Shown in pieces: positions 1 to 58,283 of a stretch of 64,000 nucleotides of DNA; position 1 is the first letter of the stretch, and every line of letters begins with the position of its first letter. A program made the translations under genes and the position numbers. The stretch comes from Thermovorax subterraneus (lineage in GTDB: Bacteria; Bacillota; Thermosediminibacteria; Thermosediminibacterales; Thermosediminibacteraceae): positions 1-64,000 of the forward strand of contig JAKIHM010000006.1 of NCBI GenBank assembly GCA_021608145.1. The letters run 5' to 3'. Under the pieces are notes generated by a model. It did no database searches and was not told where the DNA came from. It saw only the letters and a list, made by a program, of their open reading frames with translations.

Positions 1-427
1 ATGCATCTACGCCTTCCTGGATCCTCGCTCCGCCGGAATCGTTCAGGCCTATTAAGGGCGCTCCCATCTTCATGGCCATGTCCATAACCTTGCATATTTT
101 TGCGGCGTGCATTTCGCCAAGGGAGCCACCTATTACGGTGAAGTCCTGGGCAAAGACGAAGACTAATCTGCCGTTTATGGTGCCATAGCCTGTGACCACG
201 CCTTCACCTGGGGCTTTTGTGTCCGCCATGTCAAAGTCTATGCATCGGTGTTCTACAAAGGCGTCGATTTCCACGAAGCTCCCTTCGTCGAGCAGCTTTT
301 CTATCCTTTCTCTTGCTGTGAGTTTTCCGCTTTCGTGCTGCTTTTTTATCCTCTTTTCTCCGCCGCCTTGCCTTACTTGTTCCCTTCTTTGCCTGAGCTC
401 TTCAAGTTTTTGTTCCATCGTTTCCAT
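1..427 (-). CDS. Biotin-dependent acyl-CoA carboxyltransferase / decarboxylase alpha subunit (N-terminal part)
   Basis: The minus-strand frame opens at an ATG at 427, six bases after a GGGGTG ribosome binding site, and stays open to the window edge. About 142 residues are visible. It starts [16 protein letters not shown] and contains [33 protein letters not shown] and [15 protein letters not shown]. These are typical of the N-terminal crotonase-fold half of propionyl-/methylmalonyl-CoA carboxyltransferases. In anaerobes this subunit often belongs to a Na+-pumping methylmalonyl-CoA decarboxylase. The gene lies downstream of a malonate transporter and a CoA-transferase, so decarboxylation of malonyl-CoA is plausible by context. 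Substrate is not readable from this fragment. The C-terminal half is outside the window. Confidence 0.85.
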
Positions 428-5143: not shown

Positions 5144-5261
5144 TTTATTGTTCCCCTTTCGATTAATGATGTTAAATTAATGCTATTATAGTTTTTATTT
5201 TATCATTTAATTTGAAATCATTCATTATTAATAAAAAGTCTTTTATTTTCATATCAAAGCG

Positions 5262-5307
5262 ATTAAAAAAGAGAGGCACCTTGTTTCTCATTTTGGCACC
5301 CCTCTTT
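5262..5307 (-). terminator. Intrinsic terminator after the SDR gene
   Basis: On the minus strand AAAGAGGGGTGCC (5307-5295) pairs over 13 positions, including G-U pairs, with GGTGCCTCTCTTT (5280-5268), followed by a T run. It ends the TRAP/SDR transcription unit. Confidence 0.85.
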
Positions 5308-5312
5308 ACTAA

Positions 5313-6065
5313 CTAAAATGCTGTCCATCCTCCATCGACCATAATGTTGGCTCCCGTGATATAGCTCGCCCTTTCTGAGGCTAAGAATAATATAACTTCA
5401 GCTATTTCTTCTGGCTTTCCTACCCTACCCATGGGAGTATGTGAAAGGATTATATTTCTCCAATTTTCGTCCTCCAATACCTTTTCTACCATTGGAGTTT
5501 CCACAAAAGCCGGCGAAATTGCATTTACTCTCACTCCGAATTTTGACCACTCTACAGCTAGAGCTTTTGTAAGCTGCTTCACGCCGCCTTTTGTAATAGC
5601 ATAAATTGACCTTTCAGGGAGCACTACCTCCCCTTGAATAGAAGATATATTTACAATAGCACCTTCTCCTCTTTCAATCATAGTCTTTCCTACTTCCAAA
5701 CAGGTGAAAAATACTCCTTTAAGGTTTATATCAACCATAAAATCCCAATCTTCTTCATTGTATTCTATAGCTTTTTTTCTTCTATTTACACCTGCACAGT
5801 TTACCAGAACATCAATTTTCCCGTATTTTTGCAAAACAATCTCTACCATATTTTTTATATCTTCTACTTTAGAAACGTCAGCAGCAATGGCTTCTGCCTT
5901 ATATCCTGATTCCACCAGTTCTTTTTCGTATTCCTTGCCTTCTTTTTCACTTCTATTTACAATTATCGCTGTTGCCCCCGCCTCGCAAAATTTTTTAACC
6001 GCGGCGCGGCCTATACCTTTCGTGCCGCCCGTTACTATTACTACTTTTCCATCAAATTCTCCCAT
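5313..6065 (-). CDS. Short-chain dehydrogenase/reductase (gluconate 5-dehydrogenase-like)
   Basis: A 250-residue classical SDR. It has the nucleotide-binding TGGTKGIG (12-19), NCAG (89-92) and Asn114 in INLKG. Ser142, Tyr155 and Lys159 form the catalytic set, and a typical C-terminus reads ITGANIMVDGG. A Rossmann enzyme of this type interconverts a hydroxyl and a ketone using NAD(P)H. It is the last gene of the TRAP transporter unit, 29 bases after dctM. An oxidation of the imported compound is therefore likely, with sugar acids and polyols as usual substrates. Exact substrate cannot be read from the sequence. Start ATG 6065 follows GGGAGG. Confidence 0.88.
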   Translation of the reverse strand: MGEFDGKVVIVTGGTKGIGRAAVKKFCEAGATAIIVNRSEKEGKEYEKELVESGYKAEAIAADVSKVEDIKNMVEIVLQKYGKIDVLVNCAGVNRRKKAIEYNEEDWDFMVDINLKGVFFTCLEVGKTMIERGEGAIVNISSIQGEVVLPERSIYAITKGGVKQLTKALAVEWSKFGVRVNAISPAFVETPMVEKVLEDENWRNIILSHTPMGRVGKPEEIAEVILFLASERASYITGANIMVDGGWTAF

Positions 6066-19016: not shown

Positions 19017-19863
19017 CTTGAAGTTCCTCCAGTGCTAGTTCCTCTTTCAAATCTTCGTATTGCTCTTTCGTCAAAACCTTATAGTGCCATTCTACCTTGT
19101 TTTCAGCAATTTTAAGCCCTTTTCCTTTTACAGTATGGGCTATAATCGCAGAAGGCTTCCCTATCGAAAAAGGAACATCATTCAAAGTCGAAAGCAGTTC
19201 TTTTATGTCATGGCCGTTGATGCTCTTTACTCTCCATCCGAAAGACTTCCATTTTTCTTCAAGAGGCTCGAGTTTGCTTATATTCTCTGTAAGGTCCCCT
19301 AGCTGCAGTCTATTTCTATCCACAATTACCACTAAATTGTCCAGTTTATGATGGGCCGCTGCCATCGCCGCCTCCCAGTTGCTACCTTCCTGCAATTCTC
19401 CGTCACCGGTTACCACGAAAACTCTGTATTGCTTTCCATCCATTTTTGCAGCCAAAGCCATTCCCATTCCAATTGCAATCCCATGTCCTAAAGACCCCGT
19501 ATTTGCTTCCACTCCCGGGAGCTTTAATTCAGGATGCCCGGGAAGCAAAGTGTCGCATTTGGTGCAGAAATCCCCTAAATATTTTCTGTCAAAAAATCCA
19601 ACCTGCGAAAGAATAGAGTAAAGCGCAAGGCATCCATGGCCCTTGCTAAGTATCAATCTATCCCTGTCGGGCCATTTGGGGTTTTTGGGATCTATTTTCA
19701 TTACCCCTACATACAAAGTTGCAAGTATATCCGCTATCGATAAGGCGGGCCCGAGATGGCCGGTCCCGGCCCTTGTGCTCATCCACAAGCTGTCTTTTCT
19801 AATTCTTTCAGCTACTAGTCTAATGGCCTTTATCTTTTCTTCGTTTTGATTCAAACCGTTCAC
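19009..19863 (-). CDS. Transketolase, N-terminal subunit (first pair)
   Basis: A 284-residue thiamine-diphosphate half of a split transketolase. The diphosphate motif [20 protein letters not shown] ends with an Asn in VDRNRLQ. Also present are the substrate-pocket SKGHGCLALYSILSQVG and GTGHLGPALS, where many transketolases have GSGHPGG. It follows the transaldolase gene by 11 bases and overlaps its C-terminal partner. It forms the first of two transketolases in this operon. Confidence 0.9.
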   Translation of the reverse strand: MNGLNQNEEKIKAIRLVAERIRKDSLWMSTRAGTGHLGPALSIADILATLYVGVMKIDPKNPKWPDRDRLILSKGHGCLALYSILSQVGFFDRKYLGDFCTKCDTLLPGHPELKLPGVEANTGSLGHGIAIGMGMALAAKMDGKQYRVFVVTGDGELQEGSNWEAAMAAAHHKLDNLVVIVDRNRLQLGDLTENISKLEPLEEKWKSFGWRVKSINGHDIKELLSTLNDVPFSIGKPSAIIAHTVKGKGLKIAENKVEWHYKVLTKEQYEDLKEELALEELQDE

Positions 19864-24723: not shown

Positions 24724-25749
24724 ATGGAACTCTTTATCCCGAAACGGGCTTACTTTGAACGCGATGCTTTAAATTATCCATTAGGCAGGAATATCTACTA
24801 TAAACTCCAGGAGATGGGCGTGGACGTAAACTTCACTACTTCCCACAACAGAGTTTTAGGTATTCCAGGGAAGACTCCTCAGGAAGCTTACCTGGAAGCC
24901 AAAAAAACTCTAGTAGTAGGCGTGCGTAAGACTTTGGACTTTGAAACCTGTAAGCCTTCCGCCCATTACCAGTTGCCGCTCGTAACAAGCTGCATAGGTG
25001 AATGTGAATATTGTTACCTAAGCACTACTTTGGGCAAAAAGCCTTATATTAGGGTATACGTAAATCTAGACGAAATCCTTGAACGGGCGAAAAAATATAT
25101 AGAAGAAAGGTCGCCTCAGGTCACCATCTTCGAAGGATCTGCCACCTCGGACCCCGTGCCCGTAGAACCTTACACCGGCGCCCTTAAAAAAACCATCGAG
25201 TTTTTCGCTAAACAGGAAAAGGGCCTTTTTCGGTTCGTGACAAAGTTTACCAACATCGATTCGCTGCTTGATGCGAAACACGGCGGCAGAACCACCTTCC
25301 GCTTCAGCATCAATTCCGAGCGCGTAATAAAAAAATTCGAACACAAAACCCCGCCTTTGGAAGAAAGAATAGGAGCGGCTAAAAAGGTAGCCCTTGCCGG
25401 CTACCCCCTTGGCTTCATCATCGGCCCAATATTTTACTACCCCGGTTGGAAATACGATTATGGCGAAATGCTTGAAAAATTAAGTCTGGGACTTTCGGAA
25501 AGCGCAAAAAAAGCTATAGAATTCGAACTTATAACCCACCGGTTCACGGCGAGGGCAAAAAAGAACATACTTGCCGTTTTTCCAAAAACCAAGGTTCCCC
25601 TCGATGAAGAAGAAAGGGTTTTCAAATTCGGCCAGTTCGGCTACGGAAAATACGTATACCCTCCTGACAAGATGAGGGAACTCAAGGAATTCTTTGAATT
25701 AAAAATCCGGGAATACTTCCCGGACGCTAAACTTCTATATTTCGTATAA
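24724..25749 (+). CDS. splB: Spore photoproduct lyase (radical SAM)
   Basis: A 341-residue SplB starting at ATG 24724 after AGAGGTG. It has TSCIGECEYCYL with the CxxxCxxC cluster motif near 89-98, KPYIRVYVN, FVTKF and RFSIN. These define the enzyme that reverses the spore photoproduct thymine dimer in germinating spores. The Cys equivalent to Bacillus subtilis Cys141 (FEASCTSD there) is Ala here (FEGSATSD). A Cys at position 76 (FETCKPSA) is absent from the Bacillus protein and may provide the hydrogen atom instead. Its 3' end overlaps the convergent gene at 25727 by 23 bases. Confidence 0.93.
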   Translation: MELFIPKRAYFERDALNYPLGRNIYYKLQEMGVDVNFTTSHNRVLGIPGKTPQEAYLEAKKTLVVGVRKTLDFETCKPSAHYQLPLVTSCIGECEYCYLSTTLGKKPYIRVYVNLDEILERAKKYIEERSPQVTIFEGSATSDPVPVEPYTGALKKTIEFFAKQEKGLFRFVTKFTNIDSLLDAKHGGRTTFRFSINSERVIKKFEHKTPPLEERIGAAKKVALAGYPLGFIIGPIFYYPGWKYDYGEMLEKLSLGLSESAKKAIEFELITHRFTARAKKNILAVFPKTKVPLDEEERVFKFGQFGYGKYVYPPDKMRELKEFFELKIREYFPDAKLLYFV

Positions 25750-26023
25750 ACTGTTCGACTTCATCGCTGAATGAAAGGATAATTTTTTTCGCCTTTACAC
25801 CTTCTAAGGAATTCAGCTCCCTTTCTAGTCTCCCTGTTTCTTCATCGGAGCCGCAGAGCTGGAGGATAATGAGGCCTTCATCGGAAGAATGGTTTTCATC
25901 GGTGTCGTGAATCCCGAGCCTCACTTTTATGTTGTCACCGTATTTCGTCAGCACCTCCTGGACTTTAGGCGCAGAAGCTTTTCTATCCCGCTGTAAAATG
26001 GCCATTATGGTTTTGGAATTCAC
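25727..26023 (-). CDS. TM1266-like putative iron-only hydrogenase system regulator
   Basis: A 98-residue protein from GTG 26023, which follows GGGAGG at seven bases; the frame extends upstream without a better start. The stretch SKTIMAILQRDRKASAPKVQEVLTKYGDNIKVRLGI and a later DEGLIILQLCGSDEETGRLERELNSLEGVKAK match the small ACT/NikR-C-like fold of TM1266-type proteins. Those are often linked to [FeFe]-hydrogenase genes, but none lies nearby. Function is uncharacterised. The 3' end overlaps splB on the opposite strand. Confidence 0.7.
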   Translation of the reverse strand: MNSKTIMAILQRDRKASAPKVQEVLTKYGDNIKVRLGIHDTDENHSSDEGLIILQLCGSDEETGRLERELNSLEGVKAKKIILSFSDEVEQFIRNIEV

Positions 26024-26085
26024 CAAAAATCCTCCCTTCATCCCCCAGCCCTTCCCCGGCATTTATATATTTTGCTCATTTTCCA

Positions 26086-26912: not shown

Positions 26913-27335
26913 TCATTTTTCCAACTCTAAAAGTCCTTTTATTTTTTCTATAGCCTCTTTAATAGCAAGAAAAAGCGGCTTTTTTTCTATTCCTAGAACA
27001 GTTATATCTTCATTGTCTACAATGGGTATTAGGATTTTTTTAGCCCTGCAGGATGCTATGGCTTCTGCGATTTTAGGCGTTATCTCTCCCATCATACAAT
27101 TCGGGATTACTATTCCCAAGGAGCCTACAATCACATCAACTTTATTTATATTGTAGAGGATTGCGTTTTCCCCTGTTGCACCCTTGTTAGCTTTTTCTTT
27201 CATCATACTCAAAGTTGCGACTGAATTGGTCCCTAAGGCGTATATTTTTACTTCAGGAGGCAAATCCTGCCTTAACAACGATACAATTTGGCTACCTATA
27301 CCCCCTCCCATCCCATCCACAACTGCTATTATCAT
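26913..27335 (-). CDS. DUF3842-family protein
   Basis: A 140-residue protein beginning MIIAVVDGMGGGIGSQIV, a Gly-rich nucleotide-binding-like start, and containing IGSLGIVIP-like sequence (VGSLGIVIPNCMMGEITP). This pattern is that of DUF3842, a family of unknown function found in anaerobic Firmicutes. It overlaps the CooT-family gene by four bases and ends the Ni/Co transporter cluster. A role in metal handling or a metal-linked reductase is possible but only by association. Confidence 0.7.
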   Translation of the reverse strand: MIIAVVDGMGGGIGSQIVSLLRQDLPPEVKIYALGTNSVATLSMMKEKANKGATGENAILYNINKVDVIVGSLGIVIPNCMMGEITPKIAEAIASCRAKKILIPIVDNEDITVLGIEKKPLFLAIKEAIEKIKGLLELEK

Positions 27336-27541
27336 TTTTCATCTTTCCTGCTTTCCAGTATAATCTTATGTTCCAGGAGCTTTATTTCTTTTATTTGGGC
27401 ATCTAGAATTTTTTGTTCTCCTAAGAGATTATACATAAAGATTTTGTCACCCTGTGGCTCTATAAAAATCACATTGTCCATTATCTCCTTTTCTTCGCCC
27501 TTTTCGTAAAGGTACACCCTCGATTCACACACAGTGTTCAC
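27332..27541 (-). CDS. CooT-family nickel-binding protein
   Basis: A 69-residue protein, MNTVCESRVYLYEKGEEKEIMDNV, with FIEPQGDKIFMYNLLGEQKILDAQIKEIKLLEHKIIL. It matches the CooT family. CooT homodimers bind nickel through an N-terminal Cys, here Cys5, and take part in Ni delivery to CO dehydrogenase in Rhodospirillum. The fold is also annotated as RNA-binding-like. It is encoded with cbiM/cbiN, so nickel is the likely transported metal. It lies three bases after the small His-rich gene. Confidence 0.75.
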   Translation of the reverse strand: MNTVCESRVYLYEKGEEKEIMDNVIFIEPQGDKIFMYNLLGEQKILDAQIKEIKLLEHKIILESRKDEK

Positions 27542-27544
27542 TCC

Positions 27545-27757
27545 CTATATTAACTTTTTAGCTTCAAATAGAAATTCACCAGCCGTTTTTAAGGCATCAG
27601 CAGCTTTTTCAATCATCTCAGAAGCTTCCATTTTGCCGAGCCTTCTTGACTTTTCTGCCCAGCTGCGGAAGTTTTCTTCATGAGACTGATTGTGCTCAAT
27701 CCAGTGTGCGAGTAAAACCCGCAAGGTTTCTATTTCTTTTTTGTTTTCACAATCCAT
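27545..27757 (-). CDS. Small His-rich protein (HWxxHNxxHxxNF motif) of the Ni/Co transporter operon
   Basis: I take the ATG at 27757, nine bases after GAGGGG, giving 70 residues. A longer frame reaches a TTG at 27862 that overlaps cbiN, but it has no ribosome site. The core is LRVLLAHWIEHNQSHEENFRSWA, followed by an amphipathic helix. Three His, one Trp and a Glu pair on one helix suggest metal binding. Similar short proteins accompany Cbi/Nik transporters in other anaerobes, to my knowledge without assigned function. A metal chaperone or transporter accessory is the natural guess. Confidence 0.6.
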   Translation of the reverse strand: MDCENKKEIETLRVLLAHWIEHNQSHEENFRSWAEKSRRLGKMEASEMIEKAADALKTAGEFLFEAKKLI

Positions 27758-27848
27758 CTTCTTAAGCCCCTCCTCAAAATCCTTCAGTACTATTTTAAAA
27801 TACAAATTACTTTTTTCAAGGGTTTTCTGATAATTCCCTGTACATTTC

Positions 27849-28127
27849 TCACCCTTTAGCAATCAACTTTATACATCCCCATGCAAAAGCCAGGGTGATT
27901 AAAGTCCCCGTAATACCTGCTATCGCCGTAGATATCTTTTCGTTATTTATTGTTGTAATTGTATAATCAGGCATCGGCGAAAATTTAAGCACCGGAGATT
28001 CGCCTTTTTCCAAAAAACCCAAATCTTCCGCTACCCTTTCCAGGCCATCCGGGAGGGGAGAAGCATATTGCGATAGCAAAGCAGCAATAATTATTGCTAA
28101 GAACAGTATAACTGCCCACCTGTTCAT
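27849..28127 (-). CDS. cbiN: ECF transporter accessory subunit CbiN (Ni/Co)
   Basis: A 92-residue protein with two membrane helices around an extracytoplasmic loop. The loop carries SPLPDGLERVAEDLGFLEKG, the PDGLE motif of CbiN/NikN. CbiN is required with CbiM for cobalt or nickel uptake. Its start overlaps cbiM by four bases. It shares the operon with a CooT-family Ni protein. Confidence 0.9.
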   Translation of the reverse strand: MNRWAVILFLAIIIAALLSQYASPLPDGLERVAEDLGFLEKGESPVLKFSPMPDYTITTINNEKISTAIAGITGTLITLAFAWGCIKLIAKG

Positions 28128-28780
28128 CTTGCTTCACCTCTCTCATTGTAATTTGCAAAGGCCTGCGGTTTAATATCCAAAATTCTTCTAATATAGGCTA
28201 CAGCTACGCATGTTATAATCCCTTCACCTATTCCTATCACTGCATGAACGAGAATCATAGGAGCGATGACTGCATTAAACGAGACAGTACCTGATATTGC
28301 CAATTCAAAGCTGGTTAAGAATGCCCCTGTAAGAACTGACAACCACGCAGAAAGAAATATTGCTGTCATTTCGCTCCCCGTAAATCTCAATTTTTTTACG
28401 GTGTTATAAACTATACTAGCAACAAAAGTGCCTGCAACCGCCATATTTAGAATATTAGCACCAAGTGCAGTAATACCCCCATCCTGGAAAAAAAGGCATT
28501 GCACTATAAGCACGGTACTTAGGACCAAGCTGGCACTATAAGGTCCGAATAAAATGGCAGCCAACGCCGCCCCTAGCAGGTGGCCAGAAGTCCCGGCCAT
28601 TACTGGAAAGTTGACCATTTGGGCTGCAAAAATGAAAGCCGCCATTACGCCTAGAGAAGGAATGTCTCTTTCGCCCAGTTCCTTTTTTGCTTTTGTCATG
28701 CCGTACTTAAGGGCAGCCAAACTTGCAGCAGATGTTACTATTACAGTTTTTGCATCGAGAAAACCATCGGGAATGTGCAT
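28124..28780 (-). CDS. cbiM: ECF transporter substrate-binding subunit CbiM (Ni/Co)
   Basis: A 218-residue membrane protein beginning MHIPDGFLDAKT. The N-terminal Met-His and the internal His in GTSGHLLGAALAAIL coordinate the Ni2+ or Co2+ ion in this family. About seven membrane segments are predicted. The start at 28780 follows AGGAGG, and the initiator Met must be first for metal binding, which fixes the start. Upstream is a dedicated sigma-A promoter and an attenuator-like terminator. Metal specificity (Ni or Co) is not decided by sequence; the CooT-type neighbour favours Ni. Confidence 0.92.
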   Translation of the reverse strand: MHIPDGFLDAKTVIVTSAASLAALKYGMTKAKKELGERDIPSLGVMAAFIFAAQMVNFPVMAGTSGHLLGAALAAILFGPYSASLVLSTVLIVQCLFFQDGGITALGANILNMAVAGTFVASIVYNTVKKLRFTGSEMTAIFLSAWLSVLTGAFLTSFELAISGTVSFNAVIAPMILVHAVIGIGEGIITCVAVAYIRRILDIKPQAFANYNERGEAR

Positions 28781-28810
28781 AATTTATCTCCTCCTTTGGT
28801 TATTGAAATA

Positions 28811-28862
28811 AAAAAGCCATGAAGAAGCCCTGTGGATTCATCCACTCGAGCCTTCATGGCTT
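28811..28862 (-). terminator. Attenuator-like terminator in the cbiM leader
   Basis: AAGCCATGAAG (28862-28852 on the minus strand) pairs with CTTCATGGCTT (28824-28814). An inner GTGGAT/ATCCAC stem sits on top, and TTTTTT follows. It lies between the cbiM promoter (28911-28939) and the cbiM start. A second copy of the 5' arm, GCCATGAAGG, lies exactly 20 bases upstream (28880-28871) and could compete for the same 3' arm. Confidence 0.7.
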
Positions 28863-28910
28863 ACTTTGCACCTTCATGGCACTTTATCAAAATCTTTTCT
28901 TCTGGATTCA

Positions 28911-28939
28911 ATTATAAATCTTTGTTAAATATCTGTCAA
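28911..28939 (-). promoter_or_regulatory. Sigma-A promoter of cbiMN
   Basis: TTGACA (28939-28934) and TATAAT (28916-28911) on the minus strand are both perfect consensus with a 17-base spacer. The -35 box overlaps the stop region of cbiO. Confidence 0.85.
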
Positions 28940-29772
28940 TCCCTGTGGCACCCATTATTTATTAAACTATTAAACAGCTCTCCTGCTTCCTCTATAGTTT
29001 TGGGAATCTTTTCTACTTTTAATCCCCGAATCTTGCGAATTAGCCTTACCACCTTCGGAAATTCCAGTCCGGCTTCCTTTATTATTTCCTCTCTGCAAAG
29101 GACTTCAGTCCCACCCTGAGATAAAACTTCTCCTTCTCTCATCACTATAATTTCGTCAGCCCATTCATGGGCAAAATCCACATCGTGGGTAGCAACGATA
29201 ACCGTTTTCCCCTCTTTATTTTCTTTTTCCAGTATATTATAAAGATTTTCTTTGCTCTTTGGGTCTAGAAAAGCGTGAGGCTCATCCAGCACCAAAATCT
29301 CTGGTTTCATTGCAAGCACACCGGCAATTGCCACTCTTTTCCTCTGCCCATAGCTCAAATGAAAAGGCATTTTGTCAGCATATTCTTCAATTTCCACTGC
29401 TTTGAGTGCTTCCTCTACCCTCAACTCAATTTCCTCTTTTGCAAGGCCTAAGTTCGCCGGCCCAAAAGCCACGTCGTCCCACACCGTCGGTGAAAAAACC
29501 TGATCATCCGGGTCCTGGAACACAAGGCCTACCATTTTCCTCAAAAATTTTTCGTTTTCCTTGTTGGCCTCTACTCCCAAAACTTTTACACTACCTCGCT
29601 GAGGTAAGTATATTCCATTTAAATGCAGGAGCAAAGTGGACTTTCCCGCGCCATTGTGCCCTAAGATTGCAGTTTTTGAGCCCTTTTTTATATTAATCGT
29701 TATGTTTTTTAGCGCTACTGTTCCATCTTTATACCGGAAAGCAAGGTCATCAATTTCTACCGCATAATCCAT
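28936..29772 (-). CDS. cbiO: ECF transporter ATPase CbiO
   Basis: A 278-residue ABC ATPase. It has Walker A GHNGAGKST, the Q-loop in VFQDPDDQVFSP, signature LSYGQRKRVAIAG, Walker B EILVLDEP and the switch His in VIVATHD. It powers the Cbi transporter with CbiQ, encoded upstream with a 16-base overlap. It is placed before cbiM rather than after, so the usual MNQO order is permuted here. The C-terminal part has FPKVVRLI, typical of cobalt/nickel ECF ATPases. Confidence 0.92.
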   Translation of the reverse strand: MDYAVEIDDLAFRYKDGTVALKNITINIKKGSKTAILGHNGAGKSTLLLHLNGIYLPQRGSVKVLGVEANKENEKFLRKMVGLVFQDPDDQVFSPTVWDDVAFGPANLGLAKEEIELRVEEALKAVEIEEYADKMPFHLSYGQRKRVAIAGVLAMKPEILVLDEPHAFLDPKSKENLYNILEKENKEGKTVIVATHDVDFAHEWADEIIVMREGEVLSQGGTEVLCREEIIKEAGLEFPKVVRLIRKIRGLKVEKIPKTIEEAGELFNSLINNGCHRD

Positions 29773-30614: not shown

Positions 30615-31835
30615 TCAACCGTATAGTTCTACAGCTTCTATCACCGCTTTCAAATTTTCAACCGGCGTATCTGCAGGTACTGAACCCACTCCTGCTGCTA
30701 GTATAAAACCTCCTCCCGGTTTTACCTGTTCTAACAAGTTTTTAATGTATTCTTTTATCTTTTCAGGCGTTCCCCCTACTAGCAGTCCTACGGGAATTCC
30801 GCCCATCACACAGGTGTGCCCTTTGAGAAGTTGTTTTGCTTTCACTACATCTGTTTTTTCAAAATACGCTATTCCCCAACCCTTAGGCAGCTCCAAAATC
30901 GTCTCAAGGTGAGCATCATGGCGGCCCTCAAAGAATACCCATGATTTTATGCCTTCATCCAATAGCCTGAGAATGATAGCCTTAAGGTATGGCCAGTAAA
31001 ATTCCTTGTAAAGTTCAGGAGAAAGGTACTCGTTAAGGTGAAGCGGGAACATGGCATATTTTGCTCCCATAGCCTTAAAAGACAATGAGTAGTTTATCAA
31101 AGGTTCAACCAGCGCTTCAGCAGCTTTTTTAACTTTATCCGGATACCTTCGTATATCCAATATTAAGTTTTCGACCCCTCTCAAGAAGTCTCCAATCATG
31201 TCAAGAGGCGCATAGCCCCAGCCCATCGGTATAGCCGGATAACCAAGTTCCGCAGCAATTTTACCGAACTGAAAAGCATATCCAGCACCTTTCGCAAGCT
31301 CCATCCCCAACCGCACCCAAGTAGCCATCGCTTTACGAGGAGTCTCAAGATTCCTGCATGCCCTCGGAAGGACAGTCTCAGCCACAAATTTTACAGGGTC
31401 TTCTATGAGCTTATCGTATTCGTCGGCTTCCATGAAAGTTCCTCCTATAAACTGCGGCGAAGCGTTTTCGCTAATTTCTCTTCCCGGATATCTGTAGTAT
31501 TTGTCACCCAAAATATCATGCAGTGGACCAGTTATTAAGGTCAAAGCAGGAGATATATCTGGGAACTCAACAAAAGCAAGGCAAAATACCCTACCATCCA
31601 GCCCAGGGGTACCCGCCATGGCCATGTCGAACGGAAAATCCCTCATAAATTTTTCTGATGCTTTTAATGCTTTCTCGTAGTCATAACACATTTCGTATTG
31701 GGTAATTCCTGCATATTTGGGTATGATGTCTCCGCCTATTCCTGAACACGGGACCCTGTCTGGTTCTTGAAGGTTAATGGCCGCCTCAAAACGAGCAAGT
31801 CTTTCTTCAGCAAGTTTTTTTGGGTCTTTCGTCAT
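30615..31835 (-). CDS. UroD-family methyltransferase (first)
   Basis: A 406-residue protein of the uroporphyrinogen decarboxylase superfamily. Its relatives MtaA/MtbA/MtvB transfer methyl groups to or from corrinoid proteins. It has ERLARFEAAINLQEPDRVPC at the N-terminus, HLNEYLSPELYKEFYWPYLKAI in the middle and PGGGFILAAGVGSVPADTPVENL at the C-terminus, the usual URO-D methyltransferase ending. It is in one operon with another UroD protein, a transporter and a corrinoid protein. It should therefore act on a methylated substrate or a methyl carrier rather than in haem synthesis. Substrate unknown. Confidence 0.85.
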   Translation of the reverse strand: MTKDPKKLAEERLARFEAAINLQEPDRVPCSGIGGDIIPKYAGITQYEMCYDYEKALKASEKFMRDFPFDMAMAGTPGLDGRVFCLAFVEFPDISPALTLITGPLHDILGDKYYRYPGREISENASPQFIGGTFMEADEYDKLIEDPVKFVAETVLPRACRNLETPRKAMATWVRLGMELAKGAGYAFQFGKIAAELGYPAIPMGWGYAPLDMIGDFLRGVENLILDIRRYPDKVKKAAEALVEPLINYSLSFKAMGAKYAMFPLHLNEYLSPELYKEFYWPYLKAIILRLLDEGIKSWVFFEGRHDAHLETILELPKGWGIAYFEKTDVVKAKQLLKGHTCVMGGIPVGLLVGGTPEKIKEYIKNLLEQVKPGGGFILAAGVGSVPADTPVENLKAVIEAVELYG

Positions 31836-31874
31836 CCTAAATTACCTCCTGTCATAAAATTTTATATTTTAAAT

Positions 31875-33245
31875 TCATAGGATGAACAAATACGGTATGA
31901 CCATGCCGGTATACTTTTCGTAAGCAGCTTTCATGTATGGAACAACTCTTTCATCTACAATGGGGTAGTCCTTTATAAATTCTTCAAAGGGGACAATATA
32001 TTTGGACTTAAAGGGAGGATACTCATGGGAAAACTTTTTAACCTCATCTTCTCTCTTTTCGGTAGTAACCGGCTGGCCTGGATTTTCATACTTGGCATTT
32101 TCCAAGACGTATTCCATAACGGCTACATAATTCTCAGGGTTAATGTCGTTTATACTCATTGCGTGTTTGTCAAATCCAAAGATGTAGTTGCCGCCCGGCG
32201 CCAATATATCTATGAGCTCCTTCGCCTTATCTATACATTGCTGCTTAGTCCCGGTTTTTAACAATGTTATCGGATAAAAGCCGCTCAATACCATTTTTTT
32301 GCCTAACTTTTCTTTAAAGAGTTTCGGATCGCCGTATTCCATATGCAGGCGCGTGCCAGGTGGTAATTCCTGGAGATAATCAATATAGCGCGTCCAATCG
32401 TCTTCGCAGAATATCCAAACTGCTTGCCCTCTTTCAGCACAGATGTGACATAGTTTATAGAAGGTCGGCCAGTAAAATTTTTCAAAGTCCTTTTGGTTTA
32501 AAAATGTAGCCATGTGCGTCATTATCATATTTGCACCTAATATAGAGACTTCAGGCGTCTTTCCTATCCAAATTGCCAAAGGCATTAATGCTTCCACTGC
32601 TTCAAGGACTTTTTCAGGGCAGCGCTTGATATCTAGCACAATTTTCGTAAAACCCCTGCAGAAATCCGCCAGGAAGTCAAAGGGTATTAATTGGAGCCCC
32701 ATCGTTCCCGGAGGCGGTGAAAAGAATCCGTATTTTTCAACAAGGTAATTGTTAGCTATGTCAAAAGCCCTTTGCTGGTCCATCTGCGCAAAGACTATCC
32801 TCGTAAAATTTATGGATCTCGTTACCGGGTCCGCATCCAGAGCAGCGTTATAGCGGGGCATGATTTTTTCCACCACAAAGTCGAAAGGATTTTTAATGAA
32901 CTCATCGTACTCTTCCGGTTCTAAACCTGATATTTCGGGGTGCTGAATCATCCCTGTCTTGCTCATCACAAATGACTTTGATTTTTGAAACATAAGCGAG
33001 ATGGGATTCCTCGCCCAAGCCATCGCAAAGTTGTCGCCTCGAACGAGCTCCATCGCCTTTTCTCCAATTTCTATCAAAAGTTCTGGAGTGTATTGGTACT
33101 GGGTAGTCAAAAAATCCTTACCTGCGTATTCAATCAAAAACTCGGGGCTCAGACCGTCGCTGACCGGAAACCTATCGGGAATAACTCCGGAGTATACGTC
33201 TCTAAAGAGCTTTTCCCGGTATTCCCTCAATTTCTTGGCATCCAT
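31875..33245 (-). CDS. UroD-family methyltransferase (second)
   Basis: A 456-residue UroD-superfamily protein, longer than the first because of a C-terminal tail from about residue 385 rich in charged and aromatic residues. It carries FRDVYSGVIPDRFPVSDGLSPEF, MTHMATFLNQKDFEKFYWPTFYKL and PGGNYIFGFDKHAMSINDINPEN. It follows the transporter gene by 29 bases and precedes the first UroD gene by 39. The pair may be one demethylase and one methyl acceptor enzyme. Cys residues that could bind Zn for methyl transfer are present but I cannot assign them with confidence. Confidence 0.8.
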   Translation of the reverse strand: MDAKKLREYREKLFRDVYSGVIPDRFPVSDGLSPEFLIEYAGKDFLTTQYQYTPELLIEIGEKAMELVRGDNFAMAWARNPISLMFQKSKSFVMSKTGMIQHPEISGLEPEEYDEFIKNPFDFVVEKIMPRYNAALDADPVTRSINFTRIVFAQMDQQRAFDIANNYLVEKYGFFSPPPGTMGLQLIPFDFLADFCRGFTKIVLDIKRCPEKVLEAVEALMPLAIWIGKTPEVSILGANMIMTHMATFLNQKDFEKFYWPTFYKLCHICAERGQAVWIFCEDDWTRYIDYLQELPPGTRLHMEYGDPKLFKEKLGKKMVLSGFYPITLLKTGTKQQCIDKAKELIDILAPGGNYIFGFDKHAMSINDINPENYVAVMEYVLENAKYENPGQPVTTEKREDEVKKFSHEYPPFKSKYIVPFEEFIKDYPIVDERVVPYMKAAYEKYTGMVIPYLFIL

Positions 33246-33274
33246 AAATGGCCCCCCTCTGTCTTCTTAATAAT

Positions 33275-34639
33275 TTATCTCGCCTGGTTTGCACTCATAA
33301 TTTCCATTACCTTCTCATCGGTTAGCTTATAAAAGAGTATGAAAATTATAGCAGCAATTAAACCACAGGATATAGGTATTAAAGTCACAAGGTTTATAAT
33401 CCCTCGTATTAAAGCTTCTGTAGGTTCAGCAAGGGGATTATATCCTATCATAGCAAGGCCATAACCCACTACAGCGCCACTTAAAGCAACCCCAATTTTT
33501 ATAGGCATTGCCGACATAGACATTATGAAAGCAGTAAGGTCTTTCCCTGTTTTCCACTTGCCGTATTCAGCAGTATCTACATAAAGCGCAGGGCCTATCG
33601 ACATGCTGCTTGCTCCTAAAAACGCGCCAATGCTGCTCAAAGCAATAAACAAGTACGGATTTCTTCCTCCCGAGAGAAAAAGTATTGTGTAAAGGACTGG
33701 GTTCAACAAGGAAGCAAATATAAATGTAGACCTTTTTCCAAGTTTTGCCACAATAAACGGGGCTATTAGGCTTCCTAAAAAGCTAAATACAGACTGACTT
33801 GTAAGGTGGATCGTTATCATGCCCAGATTTCCAGCCACATATTTGTAATAGTATGTGAGCAGCGAAGAGATGACAAATAGGCTGGTATTTCCAATAATCC
33901 CGCTCACAAAGAGCGCCATTAGCGGACCATTGGAAAGCATGTTCGCAAACATCTCTCCTGCCGAAGCCTTAGTGCTACCCTTAATTGCCGTTTTATCTTT
34001 TTCATAGACGTCGTAGCCTTCACTCTGGCGGAATAAGTTCCAATATCCAAGCACCTGTATCACGGCAAATAAAGCGACAGTCAGGAAAAATCCCCTTCCT
34101 TCATTGCCCCTTCCTAATAAATTTATTAAGGGCATACAGGTTAAGGAAAAAACGAGGCTGGATGCTGTCATGAATTGCATTTTTCGCTGGGAGAGTCTGA
34201 GCCTGTCTTGCGGAGTTCTTCCAAGAATGCTCATCATGCTTATGTGGCCGTTATAGGCAAAATTCACGCAGACATGAGCAACTACGTAACAGGCACCGAG
34301 GAAAATAGCTTTTGTGACTTGATTTAATGGAGGGTTTGTAAACATGAGGATGAAAAAAGTGGCGGTAAAAGGAGGTGCTATTAAAATCCACGACCTATAT
34401 TTGCCCCATTTTAGATGGGAGTTTTGTATGATTCCTCCAGTTATTGGAACAGAAATCATGTCGCAAATCCTAGCGATGAGAAGGATAGTCCCCATAAAGG
34501 CTGCTTCAATCATAGCAACATCAGTTAAAAAATAAGCATAATAGGTGACTGCGACCATCATCATTAGGTTGAAAGTAAAATCTACTAACGCATAACTGTT
34601 TATCACCTTATTAGGTACCGCCCCTTGGCCACTGAGCAT
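33275..34639 (-). CDS. GPH-type (MelB-like) MFS transporter
   Basis: A 454-residue membrane protein with 12 predicted segments. It shows the glycoside-pentoside-hexuronide family signature ICDMISVPITGGIIQNS near 60-76, followed by KWGKYRSWIL. It lies between the corrinoid protein gene and the UroD genes, so it should import the methylated compound that the demethylase uses, in symport with Na+ or H+. Start ATG 34639 follows GGGGGG. Substrate is unknown; glycosides or methoxylated compounds are possible. Confidence 0.85.
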   Translation of the reverse strand: MLSGQGAVPNKVINSYALVDFTFNLMMMVAVTYYAYFLTDVAMIEAAFMGTILLIARICDMISVPITGGIIQNSHLKWGKYRSWILIAPPFTATFFILMFTNPPLNQVTKAIFLGACYVVAHVCVNFAYNGHISMMSILGRTPQDRLRLSQRKMQFMTASSLVFSLTCMPLINLLGRGNEGRGFFLTVALFAVIQVLGYWNLFRQSEGYDVYEKDKTAIKGSTKASAGEMFANMLSNGPLMALFVSGIIGNTSLFVISSLLTYYYKYVAGNLGMITIHLTSQSVFSFLGSLIAPFIVAKLGKRSTFIFASLLNPVLYTILFLSGGRNPYLFIALSSIGAFLGASSMSIGPALYVDTAEYGKWKTGKDLTAFIMSMSAMPIKIGVALSGAVVGYGLAMIGYNPLAEPTEALIRGIINLVTLIPISCGLIAAIIFILFYKLTDEKVMEIMSANQAR

Positions 34640-53524: not shown

Positions 53525-53608
53525 TGGTGCGGGCGAGAGGATTTGAACCTCCACGGGAAACCCAACGGATCCTAAGTCCGTCGCGTCTGCCAGTTCCGCC
53601 ACGCCCGC
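53525..53608 (-). tRNA. tRNA-Leu (anticodon UAG)
   Basis: The minus-strand cloverleaf begins GCGGGCGTGGCGGAACTGGC and has the long variable arm of class II tRNAs. The anticodon loop CTTAGGA reads UAG. A TpsiC GGTTCAAAT and an encoded CCA follow. Confidence 0.93.
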
Positions 53609-53609
53609 A

Positions 53610-53685
53610 TGGTGAGCCATGGAGGACTCGAACCTCCGACACCCTGATTAAAAGTCAGGTGCTCTACCGCCTGAGCTAATGGCCC
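53610..53685 (-). tRNA. tRNA-Lys (anticodon UUU)
   Basis: The minus strand begins GGGCCATTAGCTCAGGCGG. The anticodon loop CTTTTAA reads UUU. The acceptor GGGCCAT pairs with ATGGCTC and CCA follows. Confidence 0.92.
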
Positions 53686-53690
53686 TTCTC

Positions 53691-53764
53691 TGGCTGGGGC
53701 GGTAGGATTCGAACCTACGATGCAGGATCCAAAGTCCCGTGCCTTACCTCTTGGCTACGCCCCA
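53691..53764 (-). tRNA. tRNA-Gln (anticodon UUG)
   Basis: The minus strand begins TGGGGCGTAGCCAAGAGG. The anticodon loop CTTTGGA reads UUG. The 3' end is CGCCCCAGCCA with an encoded CCA. Confidence 0.92.
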
Positions 53765-53776
53765 ACAAAAAATAAT

Positions 53777-53854
53777 TGGGGTGGATAGTGGGATTCGAAC
53801 CCACGACCTCCAGAGCCACAATCTGGCGTTCTAACCATCTGAACTATATCCACC
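53777..53854 (-). tRNA. tRNA-His (anticodon GUG)
   Basis: The minus strand begins GGTGGATATAGTTCAGATGG, with the extra G at position -1 expected for His. The anticodon loop ATTGTGG reads GUG. The 3' end is TATCCACCCCA, encoding CCA. Confidence 0.93.
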
Positions 53855-53861
53855 ACGCGTA

Positions 53862-53938
53862 TGGTGCGCCCGAGAGGATTCGAACCTCTGGCCCACGGAT
53901 TAGAAGTCCGTTGCTCTGTCCTGCTGAGCTACGGGCGC
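53862..53938 (-). tRNA. tRNA-Arg (anticodon UCU)
   Basis: The minus strand begins GCGCCCGTAGCTCAGCAGG. The anticodon loop CTTCTAA reads UCU. The end is CGGGCGCACCA. Confidence 0.92.
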
Positions 53939-53941
53939 AAG

Positions 53942-54017
53942 TGGAGCGGGAAACGGGACTCGAACCCGCGGCACCCAGCTTGGAAGGCTGGTGCTCTACC
54001 ACCTGAGCTATTCCCGC
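53942..54017 (-). tRNA. tRNA-Gly (anticodon UCC)
   Basis: The minus strand begins GCGGGAATAGCTCAGGTGG. The anticodon loop CTTCCAA reads UCC. The end is TTCCCGCTCCA. Confidence 0.92.
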
Positions 54018-54022
54018 CCGCA

Positions 54023-54099
54023 TGGTCGAGGCAGAGGGACTCGAACCCCCGACCCCATGGTCCCAAACCATGTGCGCTACCAAACTGCGCCATGCCTCG
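54023..54099 (-). tRNA. tRNA-Pro (anticodon UGG)
   Basis: The minus strand begins CGAGGCATGGCGCAGTTTGG. The anticodon loop TTTGGGA reads UGG. The end is TGCCTCGACCA. It is the promoter-proximal gene of the seven-tRNA cluster. Confidence 0.92.
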
Positions 54100-58050: not shown

Positions 58051-58077
58051 GTGAAGAAAATTATTTGTTGCGCAAAC

Positions 58078-58283
58078 AAGCCGTGAAGGGGAAAATTAAA
58101 GGGAATTCCTTTTAGAGAGCCGGTGGTCGGTGCAAACCGGCAGGAACCCTTTATTTCCGCCCCAGAGCTGCCGGCGATGAGCCAGGCCGGGCGATGCCCG
58201 TTACCAAAATGAGCCTTTAGATTTAAATTTGCTACTTAGGGTGGCACCGCGGATAAAACCGCCCCTTTACGGGGCGGTTTTTT
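58078..58283 (+). promoter_or_regulatory. T-box leader, serine specifier
   Basis: The leader contains the conserved T-box AGGGTGGCACCGCGG (58238-58252). A terminator follows, AACCGCCCC/GGGGCGGTT with a T run (58255-58283). In stem I, AAAGGG and GGGG on the left pair with CCCTTT and CCCC on the right. They leave an internal loop ATTTCCG in which TCC (58156-58158) is followed by a purine, as specifier codons are. TCC is a serine codon. The downstream genes are for serine synthesis, so uncharged tRNA-Ser should relieve termination. Confidence 0.85.

Follow-up and report, generated by a model that had tools for sequence, protein, structure and literature searches.

Bacterial metal homeostasis is known mostly through DNA-binding sensors, together with a few riboswitches. 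Genes for nickel/cobalt or B12 transport are under the control of the NiCo and cobalamin riboswitches, which act in the leader of the transcript. Among elements read by proteins, the RAT of BglG/LicT-type systems is a single, longer, imperfect hairpin, and CsrA/RsmA sites are ANGGA within hairpin loops, GGA being the loop criterion.

The closest described systems are those of the ANTAR proteins (EutV, NasR, AmiR). Their targets are described as two hairpins whose hexaloops carry A as the first and G as the fourth nucleotide (PMC3369931), with the second small hairpin placed inside the 5' arm of the terminator (PMC3369931, PMC8934654). In these systems, termination is the default and a trans-acting protein antiterminates. 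Antitermination by EutV is reported to be lost when the linker is lengthened by 20 nt (PMC8934654).

The window (the whole stretch of DNA that was analysed, 64,000 nt of Thermovorax subterraneus, assembly GCA_021608145.1, contig JAKIHM010000006.1, positions 1 to 64,000) was found to possess a leader of ~125 nt in front of cbiM, the promoter-to-cbiM region being 28781-28940 (-). As read from its sequence, this leader is considered, with a probability of roughly 0.68, to be a protein-operated transcription attenuator of a nickel-starvation (possibly nickel/cobalt-starvation) regulon. The device looks like an undescribed RNA switch that stands in front of many Bacillota metal-uptake genes and is worked by a putative protein. 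The features of the leader and of the operon behind it are as follows.

28911..28939 (-): sigma-A type promoter, with TTGACA at 28939-28934, a 17-nt spacer and TATAAT at 28916-28911
28868..28882 (-): hairpin 1, GUGCC[AUGAA]GGUGC, -3.8 kcal/mol, holding repeat copy 1 (28880-28871)
28849..28861 (-): hairpin 2, AGCC[AUGAA]GGCU, -4.8 kcal/mol, holding repeat copy 2 (28860-28851); the would-be antiterminator
28810..28860 (-): intrinsic terminator, stem 28860-28816, -25.2 kcal/mol, U tract 28815-28810 (TTTTTT)
28788..28797 (-): ribosome-binding site of cbiM, AAAGGAGGAG
28124..28780 (-): cbiM, cobalt/nickel uptake S component (PF01891)
27849..28127 (-): gene of a PDGLE-domain protein (PF13190)
27545..27862 (-): 105-aa ORF between the PDGLE gene and cooT, without a Pfam match
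27332..27541 (-): cooT, of a small nickel-protein family (PF10133), which may be the partner of the RNA or else one of its targets
26913..27335 (-): DUF3842 gene (PF12953), of the protein family most widespread among genomes bearing the motif

An earlier note on this DNA had placed a strong terminator between a consensus promoter and cbiM, and this was confirmed. The promoter matches the consensus at 12 of 12 positions, which makes it the sole such site among 18 sites in the 4 kb scanned, and the cbiO-like ORF upstream (28936-29772) has its stop codon inside it. Downstream, the predicted terminator has the GC-rich stem followed by a U tract which is characteristic of the intrinsic (Rho-independent) type; it was absent from the output of a simple terminator scan of the 4 kb, which by its stated limits accepts only loops of 3-8 and ungapped stems. 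The fold of the intergenic leader has a minimum free energy of -41.8 kcal/mol (z = -4.0), with none of 200 shuffles being equally stable. The duplication reported in the same note was also found, two copies of GCCATGAAGG with a spacing of exactly 20 bases lying at 28880-28871 and 28860-28851 (-). As hairpin 2 is itself the 5' arm of the terminator, the two structures are mutually exclusive. Copy 1 is able to substitute for copy 2 as terminator arm in the window (-20.0 kcal/mol with copy 2 blocked), and therefore hairpin 2 held alone would be insufficient there, both hairpins being needed.

The earlier note had judged the leader to be unlike the cobalamin and NiCo riboswitches, and had taken a match to a known riboswitch model as a point against its proposal. 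No Rfam 15 family reached its gathering score in the leader, and nothing credible appeared at E <= 10 in 28700-29000, where the best E value (0.11) belonged to a lncRNA family. Neither the NiCo model (RF02683; 28700-29000) nor the cobalamin model (RF00174; at the leader) gave a match at the gathering score or at E <= 10. The trait in common with these two riboswitches is the control of transport genes from the leader, whereas their anatomy differs from that of the cbiM attenuator. With the BglG/LicT-type RAT, the leader would share a protein-stabilised antiterminator overlapping a terminator, but it has small tandem hairpins in place of the single longer one. Sixteen chosen related loci contained two cobalamin riboswitches, one 5S rRNA and one c-di-GMP riboswitch, none of them overlapping the motif; the cobalamin aptamers (loci L034 and L107) sit apart from it. 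Among the listed titles and opening parts of abstracts of the open literature, with PMC13056359 and PMC2954224 among the papers covered, no description of the attenuator was found, and the open literature likewise returned nothing on the larC leader or on DUF3842.

The same arrangement of hairpins and terminator also precedes cbiM in 15 of the 20 related loci L020-L039, and the arrangement is therefore not due to chance. The comparison of relatives' cbiM leaders suggested in the earlier note, which had regarded non-conservation as fatal to its proposal, thus found the attenuator conserved. Among these 20 loci, the attenuator is absent from L024 and L039, takes a variant form in L032 and precedes larC, where the same cluster begins, in L031, while L035 ends near a contig edge and was counted among the five without a confirmed arrangement. 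What the relatives keep is the terminator and the loop type A(N)GRA; the identity of hairpin 1 to copy 2, also expected by the note, is not kept. Before the larC attenuator of L031 (G024), at ~150-240 (-), a 24-nt unit with an ACGAA hairpin occurs in two copies, and the adjoining region (G024:C252:11002-11324) holds DUF3842 fragments with an internal stop.

The stem of hairpin 1 covaries among the cbiM relatives (GUGCC/GGUGC, GUAUC/GAUAC, GGCAUC/GAUGCC and others) with the loop A-N-G-A-A and its closing C-G pair being kept, and hairpin 2 has a like loop type and supplies the terminator with its 5' arm. When 21 elements were aligned, the terminator was seen to keep 90.5% of its pairs (34-52% pairing in slid controls), with changes on both sides in 5 of the 12, and hairpin 2 is 97.6% paired compared with at most 57% in slid controls, although these figures lean towards structure because the scan from which the rows were picked itself demanded pairing. 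The rows were chosen by hand from that scan, after removal of those that were near-identical, of hairpin-1 alternatives and of hits judged to be coding. Given this pre-selection for pairing, the upstream hairpins were tested separately, in elements detected by a model built without such hairpins. Within 130 nt upstream, 35 of the 91 elements outside model building have a C-[A(N)GRA]-G hairpin with a stem of at least 4 bp, compared with 2/91 further upstream, 0/91 on the antisense strand and 0.8% of shuffles. When CANGRAG words were chosen blind to pairing, the four flanking positions were all paired in 28 of 46 against a background of 45/610, and the pair types differ at each flanking position. 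No A(N)GRA hairpin lies within 130 nt upstream in 61 of 105 elements, part of which show an NGRA tetraloop and others nothing, so either a single hairpin suffices or the scan overlooks some forms. The shared signature is a C-closed (A)NGRA loop occurring one to four times, the last within the terminator.

Across the relatives, the number of hairpins ranges from 1 to 4 and the loop-to-loop distance is 14-17 or 35-116 nt, a variability which argues against one compact aptamer. Hairpins 1 and 2 have the same loop in 14 of 38 pentaloop pairs, where shuffling predicts 14.4, and the first loop is complementary to the 3' part in only 13 of the 38. It had been suggested in the earlier note that the 3' arm could choose between two partners; as a conserved mechanism this was not upheld, since matches at chance level mean that the loop type, rather than identical copies, is the conserved feature. 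Such independence of the loops is as expected if a trans-acting factor outside the RNA reads the loop signature. Among the mechanisms that the note had offered, a metal-linked RNA-binding protein stands as the best kind of explanation, while a ribosome-based one is unsupported, the frame not being kept. A leader peptide was considered in this connection and rejected: neither L003 nor L007 keeps the 7-codon frame that runs through copy 1, and AAGAA replaces ATGAA in L007.

A covariance model (R1) consisting of the last hairpin and the terminator was searched against 398 Bacillota genomes. When the model was run on the window and 14 other loci, no site but the true one was strong (28803-28864, 54.3 bits), the next-best score of 20.3 bits being its own reverse strand. 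Matches were present in 174 of 398 genomes and 127 of 267 genera at E <= 0.05, and in 93 genomes at E <= 1e-5, with copy numbers, which are lower bounds (13 candidates were scored per genome), reaching at least 13. At the strict cut-off, the compact RNA signature is thus found in roughly one in four of the Bacillota genomes sampled. From 92 fetched places and 29 of the 30 loci from the genome search, 106 distinct elements were obtained.

The first genes behind the element belong, in 79 of 94 cases, to clusters of metal transport, metal cofactors or recurrent companions. The largest of the 94 were CbiM (18), NikA-like binding proteins (9), CobN-like proteins (6), DUF3842 (6) and SAM methyltransferases (5), followed by DUF4198, Opp/Nik ATPases, FmdE, ECF S components and ZnuA-like proteins (4 each), TrmO-like and FecCD proteins (3 each) and ABC permeases, FeFe-hydrogenases and LarC (2 each). 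CooT, PDGLE and a weak NicO occur once each, and the remaining 15 of 94 are singletons or unclear ORFs. These clusters were annotated through their representatives, with CooT, PDGLE, DUF3842 and some singletons being assigned from reading of the sequence. Behind the element, LarC with its role in nickel insertion, the NikA-like proteins and cooT point to nickel, and the FeFe-hydrogenase genes (G324, G376), whose product is a nickel-free enzyme, fit a nickel-starvation response. The element would accordingly be a mark of a metal regulon, most likely one of nickel starvation and possibly of nickel/cobalt. By linking nickel importers, larC, cooT, CobN-like chelatases, FmdE and FeFe-hydrogenases, the signature offers a handle on the regulon of nickel-enzyme-dependent anaerobes and suggests roles for DUF3842 and CooT. 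In L096 (G027), three attenuator-like elements stand in series before each of two metal-transport clusters (5206-5634 and 19350-19777), the two series being near-identical, and among the matches listed an attenuator followed by an ECF S component and a SAM methyltransferase gene was seen in L100, L102, L145 and L153.

It is proposed that the transcript from the promoter would form hairpin 1 and then hairpin 2, both presenting the C-[A-N-G-R-A]-G loop. The far stronger terminator, which no structure in the leader rivals, would by default capture the 5' arm bearing hairpin 2, and transcription would stop before cbiM. When metal is scarce, a putative RNA-binding protein acting in trans, probably while free of metal, would grip the conserved loops; in holding hairpin 2 it would block the terminator, allowing the polymerase to read into cbiM-PDGLE-cooT-DUF3842. 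In the window both hairpins would have to be held. The protein may be DUF3842, CooT or a third factor. A wider and tentative form of the proposal is a Bacillota-wide RNA regulon of nickel starvation in which DUF3842 and/or CooT are metal-sensing antiterminators reading (A)NGRA loops. If true, this would be a metal sensor acting on RNA rather than on DNA, whose reach would extend over nickel importers, genes for nickel cofactors and nickel-free replacement enzymes, and it would give substance to the 'predicted RNA-binding' label of the CooT family.

Other readings of the leader were weighed against this one. An ordinary attenuator or operon-internal terminator which lowers cbiM expression without regulation, the repeat being incidental, might be argued from the position of the terminator between cbiO and cbiM, where it would reduce upstream read-through; the leader nevertheless owns a perfect promoter, the loops of the first hairpins are conserved though they lie outside the terminator, and the device recurs before metal genes across many genera, so that this explanation is very unlikely. 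Strong structural conservation and the metal-gene context would suit sensing by the RNA alone, in which the hairpins would form a new class of riboswitch that binds Ni2+/Co2+ or a nickel cofactor; the NiCo riboswitch is a precedent. That is judged quite unlikely, as hairpin number and spacing vary widely, the main conserved sequence amounts to loops of 4-5 nt and a closing pair, there is no compact junction, and the few pairs of hairpin 2 are set against a terminator of -25 kcal/mol. With the ANTAR systems, the leader shares tandem small hairpins with a common loop signature, the second lying within the 5' arm of the terminator (PMC3369931, PMC8934654); overlap of the second hairpin with the 5' side of an intrinsic terminator was found in the cbiM leader, and the same default termination and antitermination by a protein in trans is proposed for it. 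A diverged ANTAR-type system, in which dimers of ANTAR domains bind both hairpins, is still extremely improbable. The loops are C-G-closed pentaloops A-N-G-R-A, or NGRA tetraloops upstream, and not hexaloops with A1 and G4, and hairpin number and spacing are variable. The linker is short in the window, but the loop distances of relatives are 14-17 or 35-116 nt, whereas EutV is reported to lose antitermination with 20 nt of added linker (PMC8934654). In addition, PF03861 had no match in the genome of the window (G000, 11 candidates scored), which excludes ANTAR there, nor in the motif-bearing G003, G006, G008, G009, G012, G013 and G021, and the element belongs to a metal-uptake regulon. The attenuator is thus predicted to work like ANTAR/EutV antitermination, yet is not a member of the ANTAR family. 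CsrA as the loop-reading protein is highly unlikely. Some element loops are A-N-G-G-A, near the CsrA site, the hairpins are tandem, and CsrA gave a match in G000 as well as in 23 of the 27 motif-bearing genomes chosen; against this, the window (loops AUGAA) and most relatives have GAA and not the GGA of a CsrA site, and CsrA is found in 7 of 13 motif-free genomes while the motif-bearing G068, G204, G315 and G317 have no match, so that CsrA cannot be the only factor.

As to which protein would work the preferred protein-operated attenuator, DUF3842 and CooT, both encoded in the operon, co-occur best with the motif, with exceptions, and no candidate is shared by all motif-bearing genomes. It is possible but doubtful that DUF3842, by itself or together with CooT, acts in trans on the leader and that motif-DUF3842-cooT forms its autoregulated unit. 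The family is present in 89 of 93 genomes bearing the motif at E <= 1e-5, compared with 91 of 305 others (p 1.9e-32, Fisher, genomes taken as independent with their shared ancestry ignored), the association persists among CooT-less genomes, and its gene is first behind the element in G062, G085, G103, G138, G254, G373 and G165. However, it also occurs in those 91 genomes without a strong motif, it is absent from the motif-bearing G027, G056, G099 and G296, and G024 has only fragments with stops. The four genomes named, of which G027 (99% complete) has 7 motif copies, have neither CooT nor DUF3842. The predicted structure (pLDDT 93) is a general Rossmann-type fold, which says nothing about RNA; no Foldseek match was obtained at E <= 0.001, and the best VIA-align Z of 9.3 was among many unrelated folds of that type. 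CooT as an RNA-binding antiterminator, binding when metal-free and releasing as nickel-CooT, is unlikely. The CooT of this operon, which we take to be a nickel-binding protein, belongs to a family carrying an old 'predicted RNA-binding' label. It is found in 76 of 93 genomes with the motif at E <= 1e-5 and in 42 of 305 without (p 2.8e-34, Fisher, genomes likewise taken as independent), and in 49 of 53 genomes with at least 3 motif copies; the association persists within DUF3842-bearing genomes, and the motif immediately precedes cooT in G028, G146 and G147 among the matches listed. This co-occurrence would be equally expected if CooT were merely a member of the regulon, though, and CooT is missing from 17 of the 93, including the near-complete G027, G069, G171, G221 and G293. 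Its AlphaFold model (pLDDT 92) has clear matches (E <= 0.001) only to CooT structures and shows no RNA-binding fold.

The cooT product scored 79.3 bits with PF10133 (curated cut-off 27), with 6fan as its PDB relative; its start is GTG in the ORF list, and the modelled protein begins with MCESRV within the same frame. A loose search (E up to 10) of 16 CooT-less genomes for divergent CooT gave no match over the cut-off. Six of the seven ORFs at weak CooT places were read (L120 was left out) and set aside as two sporulation-protein-like, two sigma-factor-like and two unrelated sequences. CooT is fused to a longer, histidine-containing C-terminal part in L108:5660-6460 (G123) and L114:5532-6332 (G156), and open frames of 266-328 aa spanning CooT occur in several further genomes. 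A TM1266-like protein (PF21699) is encoded at the end of the gene cluster in the window (25727-26062 (-)), one of three matches in the genome; as a partner it was rejected, there being no association with the motif (51 of 93 motif-bearing and 158 of 305 other genomes).

Elsewhere in the window, two URO-D-type proteins and an MFS transporter are encoded beside cbiQ/cbiO at 30615-34639 (-), possibly as a corrinoid methyltransferase system. Seven tRNA genes are clustered at 53528-54099 (-), and a T-box leader (RF00230, 97.6 bits) was identified at 58074-58269 (+).
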